From assembly GCF_019801465.1 (NCBI RefSeq), contig NZ_JAHVJA010000011.1, forward strand, positions 62,001-126,000: a stretch of 64,000 nucleotides of DNA, written 5' to 3'. Below are positions 5,590 to 21,261 of the stretch, piece after piece. Position 1 is the stretch's first letter. Every line of letters starts with the position of its first letter. Both the position numbers and the translations under genes were made by a program. This DNA is from Leisingera daeponensis. GTDB taxonomy: Bacteria; Pseudomonadota; Alphaproteobacteria; Rhodobacterales; Rhodobacteraceae. Below the pieces are notes generated by a model that was not told where the DNA came from, made no database searches, and saw only the letters and a program-made list of their open reading frames with translations.

Positions 5590-5913
5590 TCAGATCTGCT
5601 TTTCGGGCAAGCGCACGACCAGCCCGTCCAGGTCTGGCGTCACCTTGAGCTGGCAGGTCAGCCGGGACAGCTGCTCATCCGGCTCGAAGGCAAAGTCCAG
5701 CATGTCGGTTTCCAGCTCGCCCTTGGCCGGCAGCCTGCCGGCCCACGACTTCTCCACATAAACATGGCAGGTCGAACAGGCGCAGGCCCCGCCGCAATCG
5801 GCATCGATTCCCGCTATGCCGTTGTCGCGGGCGCCTTCCATCACGGTTGATCCCAGCGGAACCTCCACCGCGGTGGAGGCCCCGTCAAAGGCCACATAGG
5901 TGATCTTCACCAT
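5590..5913 (-). CDS. 2Fe-2S ferredoxin
   Basis: A 107-residue plant-type or adrenodoxin-type ferredoxin. The cluster-binding cysteines are in the stretch [14 protein letters not shown] (residues 39-52), with the distal Cys in [10 protein letters not shown] near residue 87. The strand ending in VRLPEKQI is typical of electron carriers that serve Rieske oxygenases. It is the last gene of the minus-strand operon that begins with the RpiR regulator and Rieske oxygenase. It should pass electrons to that oxygenase from the FAD reductase encoded at 18987-20201 on the other strand. Only six bases separate it from the upstream gene. Confidence 0.92.
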
Positions 5914-5919
5914 GGCGGA

Positions 5920-6303
5920 TCAGTCCAGCAGGCCGCGCTCGGTCAGCACCTTGCGCGCGACACGGAAGCACTCGAGCGATTGCGGCACGCCGCAGTAGAT
6001 GCCGATCACATGAATGATCGAGCGGATTTCCTCCTTGGTGACCCCGTTGTTCAGGGCGCCTTTGCAGTGCACTTCCCATTCATGCATTTTGCCCAGAGCC
6101 CCGATCATGGCGAGGTTCATCATGGACCGGGTCTTGTGGTCTATGGTGTCATCCCCCCAGCCGAAGCCCCAGCACCACGCGGTCATCGCCTCCTGGAACG
6201 GGCGGGTGAAGTCATCGGCGGCCGCGAGGTTCTTCTCGACATATTCCGCACCAAGGGTCGACTTGCGCTGAGCCAGACCGTGTTCAAACAGGTTGTCGTC
6301 CAT
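5920..6303 (-). CDS. Carboxymuconolactone decarboxylase family protein
   Basis: A 127-residue all-helical protein of the PcaC/AhpD-like family. The typical HEWEVHCKGALNNGVTKEEI motif with its His and Cys lies near residues 72-93, followed by IIHVIGIYCGVP. Length matches 4-carboxymuconolactone decarboxylase. I start at 6303, where GGAGAATGAT precedes the ATG with good spacing; the open frame continues upstream without support. In this operon it could be a lactone decarboxylase or a hydroperoxide-type accessory protein; the family alone does not settle the reaction. Confidence 0.83.
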   Translation of the reverse strand: MDDNLFEHGLAQRKSTLGAEYVEKNLAAADDFTRPFQEAMTAWCWGFGWGDDTIDHKTRSMMNLAMIGALGKMHEWEVHCKGALNNGVTKEEIRSIIHVIGIYCGVPQSLECFRVARKVLTERGLLD

Positions 6304-6325
6304 ATCATTCTCCTTGCGAGGACTG

Positions 6326-6346
6326 GCCGGCCTGCCGCAGGCCGGC
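6326..6346 (-). terminator. GC-rich hairpin between BCCT and CMD genes
   Basis: A perfect 9-bp stem (GCCGGCCTG / CAGGCCGGC) with a three-base loop lies in the 55-base gap between the BCCT gene and the carboxymuconolactone decarboxylase gene. No T-run follows on the minus strand, so it is more likely an attenuating or RNA-stabilising hairpin than a full terminator. Confidence 0.4.
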
Positions 6347-18957: not shown

Positions 18958-18986
18958 GCGCGCATTTCCAGCCAAAGGAAGATCAC

Positions 18987-20201
18987 ATGAGCACCCATGG
19001 GGTTATCATTGCCGGAGCGGGGCAAGCCGGTTGTTCCGCTGCGGTCAAGCTGCGCAATCTCGGGTATGAAAGGCCCATCACCCTGATCGGTGACGAACCG
19101 CATCCTCCGTACCAGCGGCCGCCCTTGTCCAAGGCCTATCTGCTGGGGGACCTGCCGCGCGAGCGCTTGTTCCTTCGTCCCGAGACCTATTACCGCGAGT
19201 ATCAGATCACACTGAGGCTGAACGAGCCTGTTACGGGCATTTCGGCCGCCAGCCGGACCATCGGCTGCGGGACCGAAACACTCCCCTACGACCACTTGAT
19301 CCTCGCAACAGGCGCCGCTCCCAGGCGGCTTCCCGGGGAGCTCGGAGGCCGCCTGCCCGGCACCTACACAATCCGCAGCATGGCCGATATCGACGCCATT
19401 GCGCCCGAGTTCGAACCGGGCCGCAGGCTGGTCATCGCCGGCGGCGGCTACATCGGGCTGGAAGTGGCGGCTGTCGCCGCCAAGCTGAACCTTGAGGTCA
19501 CGCTGATCGAGGCGGCGCCGCGCATCCTGCAGCGCGTTGCGGCACCGGAAACCGCCGCCTTCTTCCGCGAGCTGCACCGGTCCAACGGAGTCCGGATCCT
19601 CGAAGACACCCAGCTGGCGCGCGTCACGGGCAGCGGCCGCGCCACCGGCGTGGAACTCGCCGGCGGCGAAGTGATTGCTGCCGATTTCGTTGTTTTCGGG
19701 ATCGGTGTCACCCCGGAAACCAGCCTGGCCGCCAAGGCGGGGCTGGCGGTGGAAAACGGCATTTGCACCGATGCCCGAGGCCGCAGCTCCGATCCGCATA
19801 TCTGGGCCGCCGGCGATTGCGCGTCCCTGCCCTTCCGGGGCAGCAGAATCCGTCTCGAGAGCGTCGGCAACGCTATCGATCAGGCCGAAGTGATTGCCGC
19901 GAACATCGCCGGAATCCCCACTGTCTATGACCCCAAACCGTGGTTCTGGTCCGATCAGTACGACGTCAAGCTGCAGATCGCAGGCCTCAATGCCGGATAC
20001 GACAGCACCGTCACGCGCGCCGCGCCCGACGGGGGCGTCTCGGTCTGGTACTACCGGGAGAACACCCTGATCGCCGCCGATGCCATGAACGACCCGCGCG
20101 CCTACATGATCGCAAAACGGCTGATAGACGCCGGGAAATCCGCCTCGCCCGACCTAGTGGGCGACCCCGGCAGCGATCTCAGAACGCTCCTGAAAACCTG
20201 A
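18987..20201 (+). CDS. NAD(P)/FAD-dependent ferredoxin reductase
   Basis: A 404-residue flavoprotein of the putidaredoxin/rhodocoxin reductase type. The FAD motif GAGQAG lies at residues 9-14, the NAD motif GGGYIG near 152-157, and the second FAD motif IWAAGDCASLP near 276-286. It moves electrons from NAD(P)H to a 2Fe-2S ferredoxin. I start at 18987, preceded by AAAGGAAGATCAC; the frame extends upstream into the aminotransferase end. It is the probable reductase for the ferredoxin and Rieske oxygenase encoded on the opposite strand, which completes a three-component system split between two operons. Confidence 0.9.
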   Translation: MSTHGVIIAGAGQAGCSAAVKLRNLGYERPITLIGDEPHPPYQRPPLSKAYLLGDLPRERLFLRPETYYREYQITLRLNEPVTGISAASRTIGCGTETLPYDHLILATGAAPRRLPGELGGRLPGTYTIRSMADIDAIAPEFEPGRRLVIAGGGYIGLEVAAVAAKLNLEVTLIEAAPRILQRVAAPETAAFFRELHRSNGVRILEDTQLARVTGSGRATGVELAGGEVIAADFVVFGIGVTPETSLAAKAGLAVENGICTDARGRSSDPHIWAAGDCASLPFRGSRIRLESVGNAIDQAEVIAANIAGIPTVYDPKPWFWSDQYDVKLQIAGLNAGYDSTVTRAAPDGGVSVWYYRENTLIAADAMNDPRAYMIAKRLIDAGKSASPDLVGDPGSDLRTLLKT

Positions 20202-20226
20202 ACCGCAGCAGAAAGGGACGTCACAG

Positions 20227-21261
20227 ATGTATTTGGACCCCAAATCCGCGGCCGGGTTCCGCTGCGACGAAGCCCCCTGCGCTGCCGAGACAGCCGGCCT
20301 ACGCCATTTCCAGTTCCTGCTCCTTTCCGGCGCGAACATGCTGGATTTCACCGCGGCCATCGAACCCTTCCGCGTGCTCAACAGCCTGACCGACGCGCCC
20401 GCCTATTCCTGGTCAGTGGTTTCCGAAACCGGCGAGCCGGTTGCCTGTTCAAACGGAATCAGCTTCCCGGTCGGCGGCCGTCTGGCGGCGGCCCGGCAGC
20501 CGGACTGCCTGGTCGTGTGCTCGGGCGGCACAGGCTATATGGAGGCCTCGGCACAGACATTGCAGTGGCTGCGCAGGCATGGGCGCTTCGGGGGGGCGGT
20601 GGCGGCTATCGGCACCGGCGCCTTCACGCTTGCCCGGGCCGGGCTTGCGGCCGATGCCGACCTGACCCTGCACTGGTCGCTGTTCCCGGTGTTCGAGGAA
20701 ACGTTCCAGGACATTAACTGCCGCAACGCGCGCACCCTGTCCGGCGACACGTTTTCCTGCAGCGCCGGCGGCAGCGCCAGCCTGGATTTCGCTCTCTCGG
20801 CGATCCAGGAGGACTTCGGCTTTGAGACCGCCCGACGCGTTGCCGAATTCTGTCTGCACGACTTCGGCACCGACCACAGCCGCGCGCAGCGGCATCCGGT
20901 TTCCAAGCGGGTCGGCAGCCGCCATCCCGCGATCGTGAGCCTTGTGAACAAGATGGAACAGACCATTCACAGCCCGGTGCCGCTCAGCGATCTGGTCAGG
21001 GAGGAGTCCATTTCCATGCGCCAGATCGAACGCCTGTTCAAACGGCACCTGGAGACGACCCCTTTGCAGTATTACCGCAATCTGAGGCTGGATCGCGCCC
21101 GCGCGCTGCTGCTGGGGACCGACATGTCCATCCTTGAGACGGCCGTGGCCACCGGTTTCGCCAGCGTTGCCAATTTCTCGAAACACTACTGCCGCCGCTT
21201 CGGGGAGCGGCCAACCGCCGACCGCAAGGCCGTGGCCTCCCGCAGCGCCCCGTCCTGTTAG
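20227..21261 (+). CDS. GlxA-type AraC family regulator
   Basis: A 344-residue regulator: an N-terminal DJ-1/PfpI-like (class I amidotransferase fold) domain (about residues 20-190) and a C-terminal AraC helix-turn-helix pair (about 235-335, with SISMRQIERLFKRHLETTP and the second-HTH signature TDMSILETAVATGFASVANFSKHYCRRFG). This architecture is shared by GbdR, CdhR and SouR, which activate glycine betaine, carnitine and sarcosine catabolism in pseudomonads. As the last gene of the plus-strand operon, it is a likely second regulator responding to the betaine or a demethylated product. Confidence 0.88.
   Translation: MYLDPKSAAGFRCDEAPCAAETAGLRHFQFLLLSGANMLDFTAAIEPFRVLNSLTDAPAYSWSVVSETGEPVACSNGISFPVGGRLAAARQPDCLVVCSGGTGYMEASAQTLQWLRRHGRFGGAVAAIGTGAFTLARAGLAADADLTLHWSLFPVFEETFQDINCRNARTLSGDTFSCSAGGSASLDFALSAIQEDFGFETARRVAEFCLHDFGTDHSRAQRHPVSKRVGSRHPAIVSLVNKMEQTIHSPVPLSDLVREESISMRQIERLFKRHLETTPLQYYRNLRLDRARALLLGTDMSILETAVATGFASVANFSKHYCRRFGERPTADRKAVASRSAPSC

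Follow-up and report, generated by a model that had tools for sequence, protein, structure and literature searches.

Two divergent operons under one control region

We analysed a 64,000-nucleotide stretch of Leisingera daeponensis DNA (the window; bases 62001-126000 of contig C11 in a genome of 4.89 Mb and 48 contigs), which carries a gene cluster built around a Rieske non-haem iron oxygenase and a BCCT transporter. The cluster is made up of two tight divergent operons, a minus-strand operon at 5590-11574 and a plus-strand operon at 11680-21261 (Table 1). The minus operon is transcribed in the order RpiR-type regulator, Rieske, aldehyde dehydrogenase (ALDH), BCCT transporter, CMD-family protein and ferredoxin. 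The plus operon runs from a dimethylglycine-dehydrogenase-like enzyme (DMGDH) through an MDR-family dehydrogenase (ADH), two enolase-superfamily proteins (E1 and E2), a class III aminotransferase and an FAD ferredoxin reductase to a GlxA-type regulator. As the genes within both operons overlap or are spaced by at most 74 bases, we assigned each set to one operon. A preliminary description of this DNA had named these genes and the two-operon layout, and Pfam and hidden Markov model (HMM) searches found every gene present. It had also put the ferredoxin and Rieske genes at opposite ends of the minus operon, with the reductase in the plus operon almost 9 kb away. The ferredoxin is indeed at one end and the reductase in the plus operon, but the first minus-operon gene is that of RpiR, and the distance from the reductase gene is 8.3 kb to the Rieske gene and 13.0 kb to that of the ferredoxin.

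Table 1. Positions of the cluster genes and of the related features discussed in the text.
Feature	Position	Strand	Basis and remarks
2Fe-2S ferredoxin (Fer2)	5590..5913	-	Pfam Fer2 44.6 bits; last minus-operon gene
CMD-family protein (PcaC-like)	5920..6303	-	Pfam CMD 69.6 bits; TIGR02425 118.2 bits, cut-off 155.7 not reached
BCCT transporter	6359..8032	-	Pfam BCCT 500.7 bits
Aldehyde dehydrogenase, betaine-aldehyde-dehydrogenase-like	8072..9556	-	Pfam Aldedh 512 bits; start codon uncertain
Rieske non-haem iron oxygenase, predicted group V, Tyr203 type	9593..10690	-	Profile and structure matches, residue alignment, tree
RpiR-type regulator	10687..11574	-	HTH_6 and SIS; ATG start at 11574; first minus-operon gene
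Divergent control region	11575..11679	.	Twin TACATATGTG sites at 11591 and 11621, 30 bp apart
Dimethylglycine-dehydrogenase-like enzyme	11680..14154	+	Pfam DAO, FAO_M, GCV_T and GCV_T_C; human DMGDH 5l46
MDR-family dehydrogenase / quinone-reductase-like (ADH)	14229..15323	+	Pfam ADH_N, ADH_zinc_N
Enolase-superfamily E1, Lys/Lys	15320..16438	+	2rdx 683.9 bits; K166/K266; start set here in place of the longer open reading frame start at 14858
Enolase-superfamily E2, Lys/Lys	16435..17565	+	4mgg 266.7 bits; Lys pair
Class III aminotransferase	17596..18957	+	NF004718 542.7 bits, cut-off 472 passed (family named hypothetical protein)
FAD ferredoxin reductase	18948..20201	+	Pyr_redox_2 and Reductase_C
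GlxA/AraC-family regulator, GbdR-like	20227..21261	+	GbdR model 229.5 bits, cut-off 480 not reached
Reduced native cluster (L098, contig C30 of the same genome)	199-5126		RpiR, control-region remnant, DMGDH start, DddQ, 2qdd-type enolase, DddQ, GSA-like aminotransferase

The window cluster belongs to a type widespread in roseobacters, with a core of Rieske, RpiR, DMGDH, enolase and aminotransferase. Related loci were taken as the best 80 of 302 matches to E2, and because of this choice the set is biased to close relatives and contains E2 by design. For the core counts 67 loci were kept after removal of those below 13 kb and those where E2 is away from position 10001; DMGDH was found in 65 of them, the aminotransferase in 63, and Rieske and RpiR in 61 each, an association beyond chance. 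The aminotransferase slot is filled by a GSA-like enzyme in 61 of the 80 loci, by a taurine-aminotransferase-like one in 13 and by neither in six, while no locus has both. The nearest solved aminotransferases of the cluster are of the taurine type and of the GSA aminomutase and beta-amino-acid types; for the window enzyme the nearest is taurine:2-oxoglutarate aminotransferase (6jix, 377 bits). Picking of open reading frames misses genes (43 loci with DddQ by HMM against 38 by clustering; the window ADH frame was displaced), and ADH was left out of the genome-wide searches. We found no experimental role for the cluster in the open-licence literature; the original reports on DddQ, the DMSP-lyase-like cupins, HpbD and proline betaine were outside this search, so that the dddQ neighbourhood may already have been published.

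Three of the related loci deserve separate mention. The cluster core of Sulfitobacter sp. SK012 (L107) is on a 92.8-kb plasmid typed as conjugative, and the cluster is therefore probably mobile. On a plasmid of Ruegeria sp. SCSIO 43209 (L104) the cluster copy adjoins a phn C-P lyase operon. A locus labelled Oceanobacillus (L045) holds a roseobacter-type cluster whose Rieske grouped with Paracoccaceae in the tree, and this assembly is probably mislabelled or mixed.

The start codons of RpiR and DMGDH are separated by 105 bases, which contain the twin sites. When as many as two mismatches were allowed, TACATATGTG (15 bases) matched the window four times against 0.12 expected, the two exact matches being the twin sites, and a longer pattern covering both is unique in the genome. 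A TAYANNTGT pair spaced by exactly 30 bp is seen in 30 of 62 intergenic regions (61 relatives and the window). The density of sites is 8.0/kb in these regions and 0.086/kb across the fetched loci at large. The site counts are inflated by kinship of the loci, and GC-rich coding DNA makes up the background; for these reasons we regard the fixed 30-bp spacing as a stronger sign than the density. Sites of like kind are also seen in the control region of locus L077. RpiR presumably binds the twin sites. A scan for sigma-70 promoters and terminators gave 5 promoter-like matches (2.3 in shuffled sequences) and 11 terminator-like ones (11.9), and was not used.

The oxygenase, its partner enzymes and the substrate

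In a structure-sequence search the best solved relative of the Rieske was the carnitine monooxygenase CntA (E=4e-60, residues 12-357), ahead of the aromatic dioxygenases. The match to 3vca, which we take to be Stc2, was mainly over residues 8-232. Hallmarks of group V Rieske enzymes are a bridging Glu205 and a Cys206-X-X-Cys209 pair beside the mononuclear iron, the Cys pair being reported for some members (PMC10952381, PMC7948474). In CntA numbering, Tyr203, Glu205, Cys206, His208, Cys209, His213 and Asp323 are present in the window protein and in all 61 full-length orthologs, these being what was left of the Rieskes from 66 of the 80 loci after five short ones (at most 330 amino acids) were dropped. 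The preliminary description had considered that the Rieske might instead cluster with aromatic dioxygenases; as its nearest solved relative is CntA and it has the motif of group V, aromatic degradation was ruled out.

Group Va (CntA, choline monooxygenase, OxyBAC) is described as having an aromatic residue at position 203, and group Vb (the stachydrine and glycine betaine demethylases Stc2 and GbcA) as having Asn203 (PMC7948474). By this scheme Tyr203 places the window protein, as a predicted member, in group Va, apart from GbcA and Stc2; with the GbcA model it scored 160.6 bits against a cut-off of 670. In our tree the 66 cluster Rieskes formed a single group (100/99) separate from CntA/YeaW, the outer order being unsure due to two very long branches. 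Two further Rieskes of this genome that lack the Cys pair were excluded from the tree.

The kinship to CntA could point to a carnitine- or gamma-butyrobetaine-type pathway, in which the Rieske would cleave the C-N bond to give trimethylamine and a semialdehyde that is oxidised by the ALDH, as in cnt operons. Tyr203 is consistent with this, and so is the resemblance of BCCT-ALDH-Rieske here to the cnt operon (BCCT-hydrolase-cntA-ALDH-cntB). However, identity to CntA is only ∼31% and its pocket is replaced, Tyr295 by Arg in the window protein and 61/61 orthologs, Phe247 by Met in 60/61 and Phe319 by Thr in 61/61. Moreover, a CntB-type reductase is absent from both operons, which have separate Fer2 and Pyr_redox_2 plus Reductase_C proteins instead, and the near-constant DMGDH and enolases would have no role in a cnt operon. 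We consider this pathway unlikely, and Arg295 may mark a pocket distinct from that of CntA.

The redox partners of the oxygenase are common genes. Reductase homologs (E<=1e-90) were found in 113 of 120 genomes of the family (one per genus); this genome has a second copy on contig C3 (60% identity) and ferredoxin paralogs on C2 (68%) and C3 (43%). The reductase is linked in four of the 69 loci whose sequence extends 2.5 kb or more past the aminotransferase gene. Where at least 600 bases follow the CMD gene (27 loci), no ferredoxin was found there; ferredoxins were found at other places in five of the 80 loci. A Mesorhizobium plasmid copy of the cluster has a linked reductase of the same domain make-up. 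On these counts the cluster oxygenase mostly has its redox partners unlinked, dedicated copies having been added in a few lineages including this one. Thus, the split of the electron chain between the operons that the preliminary description pointed out is real, but it is no special design, the reductase and ferredoxin being extra copies and the two operons having one control region.

The DMGDH-like enzyme matched human DMGDH (5l46) over residues 7-808 with 524 bits, showing over its full length an FAD oxidoreductase fused with a folate-binding GCV_T domain. It retains HAAG, presumably the motif of the FAD-binding His. This match, the BCCT score and the kinship of the Rieske to CntA agree with the betaine-type catabolic cluster that had been proposed. 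The genome has 14 full-length DMGDH-like matches including that of the window; the other 13 are 33-37% identical to it, and four of the matches (C9, C5, C12, C29) have stop codons inside and are possibly decayed copies.

A DMGDH would also fit choline/glycine betaine catabolism, with the Rieske as a choline monooxygenase-like enzyme, the ALDH as betaine aldehyde dehydrogenase and a true DMGDH. The ALDH does resemble betaine aldehyde dehydrogenases, the GlxA-type regulator is GbdR-like, and choline monooxygenases are Tyr203 enzymes (PMC7948474). Nevertheless, the scores of ALDH (405.6 bits with TIGR01804, cut-off 668.6) and regulator are far under their cut-offs, the enolases and aminotransferase would be unexplained, and Ruegeria pomeroyi is described as demethylating glycine betaine via the corrinoid MtgBCDE (PMC12478193). 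We hold this reading to be very improbable indeed; glycine betaine as the substrate is disfavoured by the MtgBCDE route and by the scores. For the transporter itself, none of the five NCBIfam models listed reached its own cut-off.

E1 is the counterpart of the solved enolase 2rdx, and E2 is nearest to 4mgg. K166 and K266 of E1 (the catalytic Lys pair) and the metal ligands D194, E219 and D242 are invariant across seven aligned enolases, in line with the Lys/Lys pair noted previously. A gene on contig C9 of the same genome scored 611 bits to 4e8g and 573 bits to 2pmq. We take 4e8g to be PbpD and 2pmq and 4h2h to be HpbD, and it is the C9 gene, not E1 (30% identical to it) or E2 (35%), that is their closest counterpart in the genome. 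In the alignment the C9 gene and the 2qdd-type enolase have the HpbD-type Trp, which E1 and E2 both lack. In HpbD this residue, W320, presumably faces the quaternary ammonium, and its absence suggests that E1 and E2 may act on demethylated, non-quaternary acids.

These results bear on the substrate proposed in the preliminary description, proline betaine or hydroxyproline betaine. The proposal is favoured by a kinship stated in PMC5144071, and a Rieske and a DMGDH would suit two N-methyl groups. It fares badly against the distinct HpbD/PbpD-type gene on C9, the Tyr203 in place of Asn, the missing Trp, the scores of E1 (395 bits) and E2 (324.6 bits), both short of the curated dehydratase cut-off of 500, and a ring amine that is ill-suited to primary-amine aminotransferases. 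We regard it as decidedly unlikely, and the 4e8g/2pmq-like gene on C9 rules out the window as the proline betaine cluster of this genome.

Other Rieske loci were seen as well. Contig C9 of the same genome carries another Rieske-ALDH-ADH-enolase set (L099, 12840-18039), its Rieske being without the Cys pair of group V. A locus on contig C15 (L101, 1792-8906), also of this genome, and one in Ruegeria sp. THAF33 (L111) have a GlxA-like regulator, a Rieske with Phe at position 203, a choline-sulfatase-like sulfatase and an ALDH, L111 having SDRs and a 3-keto-5-aminohexanoate cleavage protein in addition. These two would be a second quaternary-ammonium cluster, perhaps for a sulfate ester.

The window copy, the C30 copy and DddQ

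Of the 21 genomes covered in the genus, the same 17 have both the Rieske and E2, and the other four have neither at the thresholds used. The other 16 Rieskes of the genus are 69-71% identical to that of the window, and in the tree six Leisingera Rieskes form a clade of their own (100/99) with the window protein outside it. The latter falls in a mostly Ruegeria set of seven that includes one unnamed alphaproteobacterium (99/93) and is nested in a set of 14 also containing Shimia (96/88). On contig C30 the genome holds a second, reduced cluster, the aligned pieces of which share 78-92% DNA identity with Leisingera loci. This cluster has RpiR, the greater part of the control region and ∼30 bases from the DMGDH gene, and after a deletion it goes on with DddQ. 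Missing in comparison with locus L034 are the remainder of DMGDH together with ADH, E1 together with a small cupin, and E2; what remains is DddQ, the enolase of 2qdd type, another DddQ and the GSA-like aminotransferase, with a RidA/YjgF-family (Ribonuc_L-PSP) gene coming next at 5190-5537. The next DMGDH-like gene of the genome is just 37% identical to that of the window, and no second copy of E2 was found in the genome. As they are missing on C30, DMGDH, ADH, E1 and E2 would be supplied by the window copy, while DddQ and the third enolase, absent from the window copy, are retained on C30. We infer that import into a Leisingera-like genome is the probable origin of the window copy and that the import caused the loss of native genes, the case being that of one genome and one event.

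The retained DddQ genes raise the question of dimethylsulfoniopropionate (DMSP). By HMM, DddQ is present in 43 of the 80 loci, 11 of which have at least two copies. The DddQ of L077 (Ruegeria/Silicibacter lacuscaerulensis ITI-1157) aligned to PDB entry 4la2 over 192/192 residues (439 bits), and all three DddQ copies tested satisfied Pfam DMSP_lyase. A search with PF16867 found no DddQ in the window and two on C30. In the 120 genomes (one per genus), a Rieske ortholog was found in 24 and a PF16867 match in 50. Twelve of the 77 PF16867 matches, from eight genomes, are at distances of 4.6-7.8 kb from the Rieske. These 12 all belong to the 51 matches scoring below 84 bits; the 26 scoring at least 87 bits, which we guess to be DddL-like, include none of them. 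Counting against a link of DddQ and cluster, no PF16867 match lies near the Rieske in 16 of the 24 Rieske genomes, this one included, and of the 51 weaker matches 39 are away from that gene.

If DddQ named the substrate, the cluster would serve a pathway for DMSP or another sulfonium compound. DddQ is frequent in the loci, dddQ is induced by DMSP, and a dddQ mutant lost 97% of its dimethyl sulfide (DMS) output in R. pomeroyi and 20% in R. nubinhibens, although the Km of DddQ for DMSP is 22 mM (PMC5395565). The window copy lacks DddQ, however, and DddQ is optional while the N-demethylation core is nearly constant, making such a pathway very unlikely. According to the title of a 2018 paper cited in PMC8163506, enzymes of unknown function belong to the cupin family. 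A reading that we put forward tentatively, and consider doubtful, is that DddQ is by origin and regulon an accessory enzyme of an N-betaine pathway, which would abstract an alpha-proton and eliminate a beta-group from an intermediate like the neighbouring Lys/Lys enolases. Cleavage of DMSP would then be real in vivo but a side activity, and the cluster Rieskes would be a further group V subgroup for another betaine. The induction of dddQ and the DMS loss of the mutants mean that DddQ acts on DMSP in vivo, which weighs against this reading.

Around the cluster, the window carries a separate island at 21320-26596, in which a LysR gene (∼21320-22183, minus strand) is divergent from genes for a CoA-transferase III, a FAS1_DH-like dehydratase, MmgE/PrpD and HpcH/HpaI; our guess is that it resembles a mesaconate/itaconate- or citramalate-type pathway. 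Upstream, 39-5478 holds a further small catabolic set (SDR, LacI regulator, SnoaL-like, cupin, PcaD-like hydrolase, RraA-like). A genome search for RepC (PF03428), with other plasmid replication types outside its scope, found it on C18 only and not on C11.

Proposed pathway and known systems

Taken together, we think it probable, if only just, that the two operons form one regulon for import and breakdown of a small carboxylated quaternary-ammonium osmolyte, with an imported copy in the window and a reduced native copy on C30. The reactions, their order and the substrate are those we infer from the gene set. The BCCT transporter would take up the osmolyte, and the FAD reductase would draw electrons from NAD(P)H and hand them via the 2Fe-2S ferredoxin to the Rieske, which would attack the quaternary ammonium group. 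Further N-methyl groups may be moved onto tetrahydrofolate by the DMGDH-like enzyme, and the enolases might deprotonate the alpha-carbon of the demethylated acid to epimerise or dehydrate it. The aminotransferase would take off the nitrogen, and ADH, ALDH and CMD could complete the breakdown of the carbon skeleton. RpiR on the twin sites would control both operons from their shared region. The imported copy would have made the native genes redundant, so that these were lost and two DddQ genes, the third enolase and the GSA-type aminotransferase were kept. Tyr203, the invariant Arg in place of Tyr295 and the beta/omega-type aminotransferases suggest that the substrate nitrogen may not be alpha to the carboxylate, as in a beta-alanine-betaine-like or gamma-type compound.

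Several observations weigh against this proposal. The activities known so far for Tyr203 Rieskes are C-N cleavage (CntA) and oxidation of choline or benzalkonium, and oxidative demethylases are of the Asn type; release of trimethylamine by the Rieske would require another substrate for the DMGDH step, and unbranched beta-alanine betaine has no obvious need of the enolases. The strict TAYANNTGT pattern gives no pair in 32 of the 62 intergenic regions. The complementarity of the two copies is inexact, as the small cupin is missing from C30 and window alike and C30 keeps an aminotransferase though the imported copy has one, and accessory genes vary among Leisingera loci anyway. Finally, C30 ends just past RpiR, so that the native Rieske, ALDH and CMD genes may be unassembled.

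The cluster raises the question of the real role of DddQ. DMS is a climate gas, and dddQ counts from ocean metagenomes serve as a marker of its production; a conserved N-demethylation cluster around dddQ offers a concrete alternative. The genome itself carries two complementary half-clusters. The cluster also gives a common context to three solved enolases, 2rdx, 2qdd and 2pce, which carry superfamily names only in the PDB listing and of which stretches were found exactly in the Roseovarius nubinhibens locus L031, all inside 3 kb.

Of the known systems, the carnitine monooxygenase operon (cntA/yeaW) is like the window in having BCCT, Rieske and ALDH, with Tyr203, Glu205 and the Cys pair. It differs in pocket residues 247, 295 and 319, which are changed in all or nearly all 61 orthologs, and in having CntB where the window has a separate ferredoxin and FAD reductase besides DMGDH, enolases and aminotransferase. 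The HpbD/PbpD clusters share a Lys/Lys enolase of the same family and also hold Rieske and DMGDH-type enzymes. They are set apart by the closest HpbD/PbpD gene lying elsewhere in the genome, by the Trp that E1 and E2 lack and by a Rieske of another subclass. Also close are the dddQ neighbourhoods of L077 and of R. nubinhibens ISM (L031), which like the window have RpiR, Rieske, DMGDH, ADH, enolases and an aminotransferase slot. The window holds the core of this dddQ-linked cluster (RpiR, DMGDH, E2-type enolase, aminotransferase and Rieske) and the counterpart of the L031 structural-genomics enolase 2rdx in E1, but it is without DddQ and the 2qdd-type enolase, its aminotransferase is taurine-aminotransferase-like, and it adds the BCCT transporter, the ferredoxin, the reductase and the GlxA-type regulator.

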